64,000 nucleotides of DNA from Betaproteobacteria bacterium (lineage in GTDB: Bacteria; Pseudomonadota; Gammaproteobacteria; Burkholderiales; Casimicrobiaceae): positions 1 through 64,000 of the forward strand of contig JACPUX010000019.1 in NCBI GenBank assembly GCA_016192065.1, read 5' to 3'. The stretch's first letter is position 1; every line of letters begins with the position of its first letter. The position numbers and the translations under genes are program-made. The notes under the pieces are model-generated. The model had not been told where the DNA came from, did no database searches, and worked only from the letters and a program-made list of their open reading frames with translations. Shown here piece after piece: positions 60,412-64,000 of the stretch.

Positions 60412-60789
60412 TCAAGCGTCGCGCGCCACCAGGTAAACGCCGAGGACAATCAAGCCGATGCCGGTCCAGGCCGAGCCGCTCAAGGGGTGCTCGCCCAGGA
60501 GCTTCCAGGCTGCCAGGGCATTGACGATGTAACCGATCGAGAGCATGGGATAGGCAACGCTCACCGGCACGCGCGACAGTGCCATGATCCAAACCACGAG
60601 GCTGATGGCGTAGCAGGCGAACCCACCGAGAAAGCGTGGCTCGGTGCCGATGGCCCAGCTCATGGTCCACCAGTTCTCACGCGTGAAGCTGATCACGCCA
60701 AGGGTTTGCGTCCCGGCCTTGAGAAAAATCTGGGCGGCCGCATTGAACAATACACCGAGCAGTATGAGGCCGAAACTGGTGGCGTTCAT
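60412..60789 (-). CDS. ArnE/ArnF-like small multidrug resistance-type flippase subunit
   Basis: 125 residues from the ATG at 60789, overlapping the arnT stop by 4 bases. Four hydrophobic helices of the SMR/EamA type are seen, with FGLILLGVLFNAAAQIFLKA at the start and VAYPMLSIGYIVNALAAWKL and GIGLIVLGVYLVARDA at the end. In enterobacteria ArnE and ArnF together flip undecaprenyl-P-Ara4N; here only one gene is present, perhaps acting as a homodimer. Confidence 0.88.
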   Translation of the reverse strand: MNATSFGLILLGVLFNAAAQIFLKAGTQTLGVISFTRENWWTMSWAIGTEPRFLGGFACYAISLVVWIMALSRVPVSVAYPMLSIGYIVNALAAWKLLGEHPLSGSAWTGIGLIVLGVYLVARDA

Positions 60790-62441
60790 GGACGGGCGAT
60801 GATGGTGAAGCGCGCGTTGGAAGCGAGCACCCGATGGGGCAGCTGCTCGCGCTGCAGCACGCCATAGCGGTCGGTTTGCACTAGGGCGTAGGCGCGGGCA
60901 TGCTGGGGCCAAAGTGCAGCGAATTCGGCGAAACTCGCGAGGCCCTTCTCGGGTTCCTGCTCCAAACCCAGAGCGAACTCGTCGCGGTAGTTCACCAGCG
61001 TGAGCGTGCGCTTGAGGTAGAAAGGCAGGGTCTGGTCGTAGGTTTCCACGCTGTAGAAGGGTATCTCTGGCGCGATTGGGCCGTGTTTGGCTTCGATCTC
61101 GCGGACCAGATGATACGCCGATTTCGCTGGGGACAGAGCATCGTGCCCGAGCGCGACCAAAGTGGCGGCGAGCATACCGCCACCAGCGAGCGCCAGCACG
61201 CTCGCCACGACGCGGTCGCGCAGCGCGAACATCATGGCCACTAATGCACCGACCGCAAGGCTCAGGCCTGCGGATTCGATCCAGGGAACGTAGGCCTGAT
61301 AGAGCGACAGCGGCGCATCCGGCTTGGACTGGCTGGTCGCTTCTTCGGCGAGAATCACACCGGCCAGACCGAGCGCGACTAGTGGCAGGCTCAGCACGCC
61401 CAGGGCGTGTCCCGTACTGAGCTGCAGTTGGCGGGCAAGCAGCAAGGCAAGTGCAGGAAACATCGGTAGGATGTAGGAGGGCAGTTTCGAACTTGATGCG
61501 CTAAAGAAGACGAGTATGAATCCAGCCCAAATTCCCAGCAGGTGATCGGCGGAGAACCTCGATCGATCTTCCGGAGTGCGTGGCCAGAAGCGCCAGCCAT
61601 AAATCAGCAAGTGCGGCAGCCAAGGCAACACCCCGGCGGCCAACAGGGGCAGAAAATAGTGCCATGCGCCTTCGCGGCGATGCGCTGCGGTGAGGTAGCG
61701 CTCGAAGTGCTCGTGGACAAAGAAGAAATGCGCGAATTCCGGATTGACCCGGGCGCAGAGTACGAACCACGGTGCCACGATCAGCAGGAAGAGCGGCAGG
61801 CCGCGCGCGACTTCCAGGCGCTTCCAAAGCGCCCAATCACGCTGGACAATGGTATAGAGCAGCAGGCTCGCGCCGGGAATCACCAAACCGACCAGACCCT
61901 TGGAGAGCATGGCCAAGGCCATGCCGATCCAGGCGGCAAGCATCCAGCGACGTCGCCATACGGGGTTGCGTTGGGGCGCTTGCGCCAGGAGGAAGGCGCA
62001 AAGCGCCAGGGTCAAAAATGCGGCGAGACCCATATCGAGCGAAAGGAAGTGACTGTTCACCACCTGCCAGCTCATGCTGCCCAGCAGCGCGAAAGCGATG
62101 ATTCCAGCTGCCGCGCCCCAGAGCGTGTGGGCGGTGTAGCCCACCAGCAGCAGCGCGAGGAAACCGGTCAGCGCCGGCCATAGGCGGGCGACCCAGTGCG
62201 CTTCGCCGAAGCTGCGAAAGGCGAGGGCGGTGGCCCAGTATTGCAAGGGCGGCTTCTCGAAATACTTGAGACCGTTCAAACGCGGCGTCACGAAATCCCC
62301 GGAAAGTGCCATTTCCCGAGCGATCTCAGCATAGCGGCCTTCGTCCGGGCGAATTAGCTTGCGCTGGTCGAGGGTGCCGAACCACAAGGTGGTGAAGACC
62401 AGGAATAGCGCAAGAAGCGCTTGGCGGCTGGGCAGGGGCAT
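60786..62441 (-). CDS. arnT: Lipid A aminoarabinose transferase ArnT
   Basis: 551 residues from the ATG at 62441 (MPLPSRQALLALFLVFTTLW). An inner-membrane GT-C glycosyltransferase that moves L-Ara4N to lipid A. The periplasmic acidic motif is in RKLIRPDEGRYAEIAREMAL; LKYFEKPPLQYWATALAFRS is diagnostic. About ten transmembrane helices follow, then a periplasmic C-terminal domain with FYSVETYDQTLPFYLKRTLT. It is the first gene of the operon. Confidence 0.94.
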   Translation of the reverse strand: MPLPSRQALLALFLVFTTLWFGTLDQRKLIRPDEGRYAEIAREMALSGDFVTPRLNGLKYFEKPPLQYWATALAFRSFGEAHWVARLWPALTGFLALLLVGYTAHTLWGAAAGIIAFALLGSMSWQVVNSHFLSLDMGLAAFLTLALCAFLLAQAPQRNPVWRRRWMLAAWIGMALAMLSKGLVGLVIPGASLLLYTIVQRDWALWKRLEVARGLPLFLLIVAPWFVLCARVNPEFAHFFFVHEHFERYLTAAHRREGAWHYFLPLLAAGVLPWLPHLLIYGWRFWPRTPEDRSRFSADHLLGIWAGFILVFFSASSSKLPSYILPMFPALALLLARQLQLSTGHALGVLSLPLVALGLAGVILAEEATSQSKPDAPLSLYQAYVPWIESAGLSLAVGALVAMMFALRDRVVASVLALAGGGMLAATLVALGHDALSPAKSAYHLVREIEAKHGPIAPEIPFYSVETYDQTLPFYLKRTLTLVNYRDEFALGLEQEPEKGLASFAEFAALWPQHARAYALVQTDRYGVLQREQLPHRVLASNARFTIIARP

Positions 62442-62503
62442 GAGCAGAATGGTCTTTTGCCCCCTCGTCCGGCTCGTCTTGCCGAAAGCGGGCGGGGCGG
62501 CGA

Positions 62504-62512
62504 ATTGTAGCA
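62504..62512 (-). promoter_or_regulatory. Extended -10 promoter of the arn operon
   Basis: Minus strand TGC-TACAAT (62512-62504), giving a leader of about 55 nt to the arnT ATG. The -35 is weak. It lies back to back with the cysS promoter, whose -35 starts 14 bp away. Confidence 0.5.
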
Positions 62513-62525
62513 CCGGGCGGTGTTC

Positions 62526-62555
62526 TTGACCGCGTGCGTGCTCCGCCCTTACCAT
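62526..62555 (+). promoter_or_regulatory. Sigma-70 promoter of the cysS leader
   Basis: TTGACC (62526-62531), 18 bases, TACCAT (62550-62555). The expected transcription start (62561-62563) coincides with the ATG of the cysteine-rich leader peptide at 62562, so the mRNA may be leaderless. Confidence 0.6.
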
Positions 62556-62561
62556 TGCGCC

Positions 62562-62642
62562 ATGTCCTCCTGCCCAACCCACCCTGCCTGTTGTTGCGCG
62601 ATCTGCCGGCCCTCCCGGCGGTCGCAGGCTCGTGCGCGCTGA
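62562..62642 (+). CDS. Cysteine-rich leader peptide of cysS
   Basis: 26 codons: MSSCPTHPACCC, then AICRPSRRSQARAR and a TGA stop. Five cysteines, three of them consecutive (codons 10-12, 62589-62597) and one at codon 15. No ribosome binding site is visible, which fits a leaderless start at the predicted transcription start. The Cys codons end just before an inverted pair (62603-62609 with 62615-62621) that competes with antiterminator pairing, as in amino-acid leader attenuators. It precedes the cysteine tRNA ligase gene, making cysteinyl-tRNA the logical sensed signal. Confidence 0.7.
   Translation: MSSCPTHPACCCAICRPSRRSQARAR
62603..62624 (+). promoter_or_regulatory. Protector / antiterminator segments of the cysS attenuator
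   Basis: Segment 1 (62603-62609, CTGCCGG) pairs with 62615-62621 (CCGGCGG) over a five-base loop. Segment 2 (62616-62624, CGGCGGTCG) can instead pair with 62669-62677 (CGGCCGCCG), the 5' arm of the terminator, through nine pairs including one G-U. The two foldings are mutually exclusive. Confidence 0.6.
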
Positions 62643-62667
62643 CCGTCAGCGTTGTTGAACGGAGCCC

Positions 62668-62703
62668 ACGGCCGCCGCCTAAAACGGCGGCCGTTTTTAT
62701 TTC
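62668..62703 (+). terminator. Intrinsic terminator in the cysS leader (attenuator)
   Basis: ACGGCCGCCG (62668-62677) and CGGCGGCCGT (62685-62694) form a perfect 10-bp stem with a 7-base loop, followed by TTTTATTT. It ends 19 bp before the cysS ATG, on the same strand, so it would stop cysS transcription unless disrupted. Confidence 0.85.
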
Positions 62704-62721
62704 CCCATTCCGGACCCCACC

Positions 62722-64000
62722 ATGGATCTGCAACTCTACGACACCTACACCCGCAGCCAGCGTCCTTTCGTTCCCATTCATCCGGGGGAGGTGGGCTTGT
62801 ACACTTGCGGCCCCACGGTGTACGACTACGCGCACATCGGCAACCTGCGCACCTACCTTTTTGAGGATGGCCTGAAGCGGGTGCTGAAGTGGAACGGCTA
62901 TCGGGTGCATCATGTGATGAACATCACCGATGTTGGGCACCTGGTGTCCGATGCCGACACCGGCGACGACAAGATGGAAGAGGGCGTGCGGCGCACCGGC
63001 AAGACTGCCTGGGAAATCGCCGCGCTCTACACCGAGGCCTTCCGTACCGACCTCAAGGCCTTGAACATCGAAGAGCCGGAGATCTGGTGTCGCGCCACCG
63101 ATCACATCAGCGAGCAGATTGCCTTCGTGGCGGATTTGGAGGCCAAGGGCTTCACCTACCGCACCAGCGACGGTATCTATTTCGATACTTCGAAGCTCGC
63201 CGACTATGGCTACCTCGGGCGGCTGGATACCGCGGGGCAGGAAGCGGGCATACGCGTGGAATTGGGCGAAAAACGGCATCCCACCGACTTTGCCCTGTGG
63301 AAGTTCAGCCCCGCGAACGAGCGGCGCCAGATGGAATGGGACAGTCCCTGGGGTAGGGGCTTCCCGGGCTGGCACATCGAATGCTCGGCCATGGCGCAGA
63401 AGTACCTCGGCGAGTTGTTTGATATTCATTGCGGCGGGGAGGACCACATCAAGGTTCACCACACCAACGAAATCGCCCAGACCGAGGCGCGCTGTGGCAC
63501 CCGTCTGGCCAACTATTGGCTGCACGGCTACTTCCTGCAACTCAATCAAGCCAAGATGGCGAAAAGCGCTGGCGGTTTTCTGCGCGTGCAGACCCTGCTC
63601 GATCAGGGCTACGACCCGCTTGCTTATCGCTACCTGTGCCTCACCGCCCATTACCGTACCCAGCTCAATTTCACCTGGGACGCCCTCGACGCCGCGGTTA
63701 CGGCCTGCGAGCGACTGCGCTTGGCGACCTTCAAGCTTGGTGTCGCGGGTGACCCGGACCCAGGCTTGGTGCAGCGGTTCACCGCCGAGATCAACGATGA
63801 CCTGAATTTTCCTCGTGCCCTCGCGCTCACCTGGGAAGTGCTGAAAAGTGAGTTGCCCGATGCCCTCAAGAAAGGCACGCTGCTCAAGTTCGACGAAGCG
63901 CTGGGACTCGGGCTCGCGACCTGGACGCCGCGCGAGGAAGACGTTCCCGCTGAGGTGCGGGCGCTGGCCGAAGCGCGTTGGGCGGCCAAGAAAGCCAAGG
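62722..64000 (+). CDS. cysS: Cysteinyl-tRNA synthetase CysS (3' partial)
   Basis: 426 residues are visible; the frame is open to the window end, so about 30-40 residues are missing. It charges tRNA-Cys with cysteine. The class I HIGH-type motif is HIGN at 38-41 in [18 protein letters not shown], with the zinc ligand Cys29; further ligands are expected around [15 protein letters not shown]. The KMSKS-type loop is KMAKS at 278-282. [18 protein letters not shown] is typical. No ribosome binding site stronger than GGA is seen. Transcription must pass the attenuator upstream. Confidence 0.95.

Follow-up and report, generated by a model that had tools for sequence, protein, structure and literature searches.

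The cysteinyl-tRNA synthetase gene (cysS) at the end of the window, which is the whole analysed stretch of 64,000 nucleotides, is preceded by what we consider, with a probability of about 0.85, to be a ribosome-mediated transcription attenuator. Its leader peptide would be read from a leaderless mRNA, and the system would raise CysS when Cys-tRNA is short. Because related bacteria keep the arrangement, it is very probably a real switch. The features of the region are the following, where sister means the second species of the genus (L083).

62526-62555, + strand: promoter from a promoter scan, with -35 box TTGACC (62526-62531), 18-nt spacer and -10 box TACCAT (62550-62555); the sister boxes are 6/6 and 5/6 identical.
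62562, + strand: putative transcription start at the A of the leader ATG or next to it, which would make the mRNA leaderless; the -10 box ends 6 nt before the ATG, with similar spacing in many relatives.
62562-62642, + strand: leader peptide ORF, 26 codons plus TGA, from ORF reading; a Cys-pair leader is kept in relatives.
62571-62573, + strand: Cys codon 4 (TGC), also Cys in the sister.
62589-62597, + strand: Cys codons 10-12 (TGT TGT TGC), the putative regulatory run; the sister has Cys at 11 and 12.
62598-62625, + strand: segments 1 and 2, a 1:2 hairpin with strands 62598-62609 and 62615-62625, predicted in the whole-leader fold.
62604-62606, + strand: Cys codon 15 (TGC), within segment 1, Cys in the sister too.
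62616-62624, + strand: segment 2, the antiterminator strand CGGCGGTCG, predicted to pair with 62669-62677; codons 17-26 plus stop are 31/33 identical to the sister.
62627-62666, + strand: internal stem-loop joining segments 2 and 3 and including the leader stop codon, predicted fold.
62668-62701, + strand: intrinsic terminator from a terminator scan, stem 62668-62694 (segments 3 and 4) and U-run 62695-62701; 24/27 identical to the sister.
62722-64000, + strand: cysS, cysteinyl-tRNA synthetase, by ORF and homology; it runs off the window and is a 471-codon open frame in the genome.

The initial annotation had described a promoter whose predicted start coincides with an ATG, and behind it a 26-codon frame with five Cys codons, three of them in a row. 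Both were confirmed. TTGACC-18-TACCAT is the sole promoter-like site within 62200-63000 (0.2 expected in shuffles); no second perfect match to the promoter and ATG spacing was found in the same genome, where the promoter-plus-ATG search gave one more site, which has two mismatches, and the backward control also gave one. The ORF at 62562-62642 translates as MSSCPTHPACCCAICRPSRRSQARAR and a stop, with Cys at codons 4, 10, 11, 12 and 15, of which 10-12 are consecutive. The regulatory codons match the amino acid of the downstream gene: five Cys codons stand ahead of cysS, their translation being predicted, and Cys pairs are conserved.

A 10-bp terminator between leader and cysS had been claimed as well, and it is present at 62668-62694, with 10 pairs, nine of them G-C, followed by TTTTATT. 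The cysS start at 62722 is 27 nt past the terminator stem and 20 nt past the U-run. The long ORF adjoining the leader (60786-62582) is on the opposite strand, and so the terminator serves no upstream gene and belongs to the cysS transcript. When the whole leader was folded, the 1:2 hairpin at 62598-62625, the internal stem at 62627-62666 and the terminator appeared together (z -3.2, 0/200 shuffles as stable). A hairpin just after the Cys run, as annotated, forms in this fold, but it was not reproduced when 62589-62640 was folded alone, which gave a different hairpin with a stability no greater than that of shuffles (z -0.2, 74/200). If the leader is folded with the 3' arm of the terminator withheld, a helix between 62617-62624 and 62669-62676 forms across the internal stem (z -2.3, 4/200 shuffles).

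From these parts we infer a start site, ribosome stalling, a folding switch and read-through. Transcription would start at, or a few nucleotides from, the leader AUG, and ribosomes would translate the 26-codon leader without a Shine-Dalgarno (SD) sequence, as the spacing suggests. With ample Cys-tRNA, the ribosome would clear the Cys run, reach the stop codon at 62640-62642 and unfold the internal stem (62627-62666); the 1:2 hairpin (62598-62625) would close behind it, the 3:4 terminator (62668-62694) would form and transcription would end before cysS. The leading edge of a ribosome lies about 12 nt past the codon at which it stalls. With scarce Cys-tRNA, a ribosome stalled at codons 10-12 (62589-62597) would extend to about 62609 and cover segment 1 (62598-62609), while segment 2 would bind the terminator 5' arm and transcription would continue into cysS. 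The initial reading as a sensor of Cys-tRNA is supported by the conserved Cys run and terminator.

Families and genera are given here by arbitrary codes (f1, f8, f28, f33; g1 and so on), in which f1 is the family of the window, f1g1 its genus and f1g2 a sister genus. Genus f1g1 is represented by two genomes, the window's and L083, and the sister comparison is one species pair. L083 has the leader MSSCVKRLARCCPACRHSRRSQARAR with a stop, and a terminator at the same place as in the window, whose U-run is weaker and interrupted (TTTGCATTTT). Identical over aligned positions were 6/6 in the -35 box, 9/18 in the spacer, 5/6 in the -10 box and 6/6 from there to the ATG; 16/27 in codons 1-9, 14/21 in codons 10-16 and 31/33 from codon 17 to the stop; 12/25 from stop to terminator, 24/27 in the terminator and 16/25 between terminator and cysS. 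By these identities the control parts are kept, whereas the stretches that connect them have drifted. At its third codon positions cysS shows 57.5% identity, and against this value the binomial p was 3.7e-6 for codons 17 to stop, 4.5e-4 for the terminator and 6.8e-4 for the boxes plus the -10-to-ATG spacing (17/18 identical), with segments that were laid out after the model and in one species pair. The initial annotation had predicted that a spurious signal would fail to be conserved in close relatives; this failure did not occur, because both the Cys run and the terminator are kept in the second species of the genus as well as in a sister genus.

The same comparison bears on whether the ORF could be a functional small Cys-rich protein (metal- or redox-binding) that lies before cysS by chance. 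Several leaders are indeed rich in Cys, for example MTKSLSCCCAPICICCCAHRRVCSQ in L105, but the peptides share little between genera besides Cys (judged by eye), leader lengths within f1g2 range from 14 to 35 codons, and the C-terminal part in the window is nearly identical to the sister at the DNA level, more so than the N-terminal part. Such a protein is very improbable.

The distribution of the leader was followed through f1 and beyond. The f1 sample of 64 genomes gave 62 usable upstream regions, after G033 (no cysS match) and G027 (a fragment without start) were dropped. A Cys-Cys uORF before cysS was present in f1g1 (2/2), f1g2 (16/16), f1g4 (1/7) and f1g3 (2/22), and none was found in f1g5 (0/4), f1g6 (0/10) and f1g7 (0/1); a few loci of genera g3, g4, g5 and g7 had looser CxC leaders. 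The same cysS lineage, 62-70% identical to the window CysS, occurs in other families: 14/61 genomes of f28, 1/5 of f33 and 105/392 of f8, for which 52 upstream regions were examined among the 105 genomes. Here the Cys-Cys uORF was found in f28 (14/14), f33 (1/1), f8g14 (6/6), f8g153 (1/1), f8g164 (1/2), f8g196 (1/1), f8g116 (14/23), f8g194 (2/5) and f8g165 (4/11, several f8g165 loci having Cys-Pro-Cys in another frame), and f8g60 gave 0/3. Across the whole cysS lineage the count was 65/129.

Control rates of Cys pairs were 3/52 for native cysS of the order, a set of 40 loci hand-picked among the matches listed (mostly one per family) and 12 further loci, which do not sample the 380 order genomes with cysS at random. 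They were 1/76 for cysS from other organisms (80 loci minus L002, which is the same place as L087, and three with <200 nt upstream) and 2/28 for other cysS of the phylum. In leaders of six related groups, Cys made up 14.6% of the same-frame codons versus 4.7% and 3.3% in the other frames, the first value being biased upward because the leaders were chosen for Cys pairs or CxC. Shuffled upstream regions gave Cys-pair frames in 0-10% by group, which leaves some room for a chance Cys-rich frame next to an ordinary terminator. This explanation is already contradicted by conservation (f1g1 2/2, f1g2 16/16, f28 14/14 and f8g14 6/6 against the control rates) and by the -10 spacing, and it is scarcely credible.

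L061 and L275, two of the loci counted as hits in the controls, may have genuine leaders. Both belong to distant proteobacterial cysS genes that are sisters in the tree, and their uORFs, MTILFINFYCCR and MMITYPMLFYCCR, each ending in a stop, are located about 120 to 80 nt upstream; they are maybe an independent Cys leader. L156 has a frame ending V-T-R-S-C-C-N-C-C-stop ahead of a native-type betaproteobacterial cysS.

The leader mRNA is probably leaderless, because 37/65 Cys-pair leaders of the lineage have a TANNNT box whose end is 5-8 nt upstream of the ATG, while shuffles gave 0-0.6% by group; the window box, 6 nt before the ATG, falls inside this range. The 28 other leaders belong to f8g116 (14), f1g2 (6), f8g165 (4), f8g194 (2), f8g164 (1) and f8g196 (1), which includes all Cys-pair leaders of f8g116 and f8g165; in f1g2 the box lies at 9-10 nt in five of the six and is missing from the sixth. 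In six groups the spacing was found in 34/40 leaders versus 1/118 other ATGs of the same regions, but these groups were chosen after the 37/65 result was known and the leader start was picked with preference for a -10 box, so the 37/65 count is the fairer test, since shuffles were treated in the same way. With leader starts picked by the same preference, an SD-like motif in f28 was present before cysS in 14/14 and in front of 1/14 leader ATGs. No such motif precedes leader or cysS in the window or the sister, and its absence at the window leader says little because cysS is also without one. The guess of a leaderless start in the initial annotation has gained comparative support from the 37/65 spacing and from the 6/6 identity between -10 box and ATG in the sister.

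Terminators were found in f1g1 (2/2), f1g2 (16/16), f28 (13/14), f33 (1/1) and f8g165 (11/11), were weak or absent in f8g14 and unconvincing in f8g116. Their stem sequences vary by group (GGCCGCCG, AAGGCTGC, GGCCACAG). Judged by eye, cysS of f1g2 seems codirectional with the gene upstream of it, and the terminator there could serve that gene too. Six loci of f8 genera g194, g60 and g164 (L258, L259, L260, L261, L262 and L264, with L261 and L264 read by eye) carry a short single-Cys leader ending F-(G/A)-A-C-(R/S/A)-x-x-P, together with a -10 box 6 nt before the ATG and the GGCCACAG terminator.

The antiterminator was analysed in 60 leaders, with f8g116 and leaders without a found terminator left out. 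Duplex energies between the stretch after the Cys codons and the terminator 5' arm gave a mean z of -1.7 in f1g1 (n=2) and -1.2 in f1g2 (n=16), were close to 0 for f8g165 and for most genera of f28, and averaged -0.55 over the 60 leaders; p was 0.06 in the window and 0.085 in the sister, and a terminator-swap control on these energies gave no class-specific gain. By partition functions over the 60 leaders, the 5' arm was sequestered at 0.53 with the ribosome stalled at Cys, at 0.25 with the ribosome at the stop and at 0.58 in the shuffled stalled case, so the difference between stall and stop is what any sequence of such length gives. The antiterminator across the 60 leaders did not exceed shuffles (30/60 above their own shuffles, Wilcoxon p 0.26). 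The values in f1g1 were 0.95 stalled, 0.45 at the stop and 0.73 shuffled, with p 0.15 in the window (0.90 versus 0.70 shuffled), 0.03 in the sister and a Wilcoxon p of 0.06 for f1g1 and f1g2 together. By group, f1g1, f1g3, f1g4 and f1g7 were above shuffles; f8g165 and most other f8 groups were below on average. An earlier pairing test, replaced by duplex energies and partition functions, had given p of 0.05 or less in 3/24 leaders (window 0.033, sister 0.010, L087 0.033), a 25th leader, L113, being unscorable.

The pairing of a leader segment with the terminator 5' arm, as first proposed, is suggestive in the window (z -2.3) and in the genus, but it is not significant over the whole set. The models suggest an antiterminator in f1g1, and in other groups it is unproven; its best support is the 31/33 conservation of the predicted strand. 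The alignment of relatives proposed in the initial annotation kept Cys run and terminator, but compensatory change in both foldings was not demonstrated in it. A GGGGA:UCC pairing in f8/f28 leaders with one U-A to C-G swap (L222 versus L211, by eye) was not counted as covariation, because the helices are in different registers in the alignment.

The lack of significance over the set would also be expected if the leader were Cys-dependent but controlled translationally or by Rho rather than by a 2:3/3:4 switch, the hairpin before cysS being a basal terminator. The f8g116 loci agree with this: the Cys-pair uORF is kept in 14/23, all 14 place the Cys run at the stop or one codon before it, and a convincing terminator was present in 0/14 (10 with none, four with only 6-pair stems), a layout resembling the mycobacterial cys leaders for which the accessible text of PMC1262725 proposes Rho. 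In the window and the sister, however, the antiterminator overlaps a terminator stem that is long and rich in G+C, and the stretch with segment 2, codons 17 to stop, is 31/33 identical. For the window we judge this alternative unlikely and prefer the transcription attenuator. At f8g116 loci L147, L148, L205, L208, L218, L221 and L224 the Cys run is at or next to the uORF stop and no convincing intrinsic terminator was seen; the f8g116 loci look like a different attenuator, possibly Rho-dependent or translational.

A covariance model was built from 13 f28/f8 leaders and run on the 61 f28 genomes, scoring the 67 best candidates per genome. Twelve matches had E<1e-5, each of them immediately before lineage cysS. 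Of the 13 model sequences, 10 come from the searched genomes; G845, G862 and G864 were held out, although G845 differs little from one row of the model. A 13th match lay before lineage cysS at 1.5e-4, eight weaker matches were elsewhere (2.8e-4 to 0.007), and G867, whose leader is without a found terminator, was missed. Rfam at the gathering score (T-box and other cis-regulators) had no match in the window or in 18 related loci. Sub-threshold Rfam hits had E of 0.022-7.6 in a search to E 10; the best, at 0.022, was an unrelated RNA element, and they were taken as chance.

In a quick CysS tree, which carried long-branch warnings and left out 4/79 sequences, the lineage is on one starred branch with Pseudomonadales L003, well apart from eight native betaproteobacterial CysS. 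L003 has no Cys-pair leader. The closest named relative is L002, a Betaproteobacteria MAG with 73% identical CysS. Since each of the three main branches of the lineage has Cys leaders, the simplest reading would be that the Cys leader is an old trait which was lost in f1g6 and mostly in f1g3. The patchy distribution suggests that the lineage may have been transferred between families, where it would replace or double the native cysS. Among the matches listed in one search of the order, six genomes outside f1 had lineage cysS, and four of these (G042, G181, G281 and G381) have a second cysS match in a two-synthetase arrangement; in G042, G181 and G381 this match has 39-40% identity and is native-type cysS (among the matches listed). 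The forms would make a series: leaders with a Cys run and an intrinsic terminator (f1g1, f1g2, f28, f33), leaders with one Cys (some f8 genera), and those of f8g116, whose Cys run stands at the stop and which have no terminator. We propose tentatively, at not quite even odds, that a lineage of betaproteobacterial cysS genes brings along a leaderless Cys attenuator of its own, that the two have passed together from family to family, and that the attenuation chemistry has switched within the lineage.

If this reading of the lineage is true, the series would let a change of attenuation mechanism be followed in nature. The cysS attenuator itself would extend Cys-codon control of cysS from Rhodobacterales to Betaproteobacteria, would make the leaderless start of an attenuator peptide seem a recurring design and not an oddity, and would supply many natural variants, in which the terminator is kept, reduced or lost, for the study of attenuator evolution. 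It is also a candidate cysteine-starvation sensor of these bacteria.

Several known systems share parts of this arrangement. Synthetase genes under classical leader-peptide attenuators include pheST in gamma-proteobacteria and trpS and leuS in Streptomyces, which belong to other amino acids and other taxa (PMC1262725, as far as accessible). The trpL of Sinorhizobium meliloti also attenuates transcription, with an RNA that starts at the leader ATG, but it has Trp codons, precedes trpE(G) and is alphaproteobacterial (PMC7298713, in its accessible part). Mycobacterial leaderless poly-Cys sORFs, with cysteine-responsive attenuation (Canestrari et al. 2020, via the accessible parts of PMC9031893 and PMC13236596), also have Cys runs in a leaderless short ORF. 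Unlike the window leader, they precede cysteine biosynthesis operons and not cysS according to the same parts and those of PMC1262725; PMC13236596 describes translation attenuation in its accessible part, and that of PMC1262725 reports no conserved terminators in the cys-operon leaders and suggests Rho.

The nearest system is the uORFC-8-2 motif, a cysS attenuator with tandem Cys codons that the accessible sections of PMC8632094 report exclusively in Rhodobacterales (Alphaproteobacteria). According to these sections it occurs upstream of cysS only and has a short uORF with tandem Cys, an intrinsic terminator and the same proposed logic, its tandem Cys usually being at codons 14-15, which is also the position in the f28 g67 leaders. 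It differs from the window in that its Cys codons lie inside the first stem and that a leaderless start is not mentioned in those sections. The window system is outside Rhodobacterales, with the Betaproteobacteria MAG L002 as closest named relative. The initial annotation had known no such betaproteobacterial system, and in open-licence literature and Rfam we found no description of a Cys-codon cysS attenuator in Betaproteobacteria; since a tandem-Cys cysS attenuator is published for Rhodobacterales (PMC8632094, in the same sections), the novelty is smaller than first thought. Because no betaproteobacterial description was found in these sources, what is new, within an already known kind of attenuator, is a form that is leaderless, has a terminator and stands before a cysS lineage of Betaproteobacteria.
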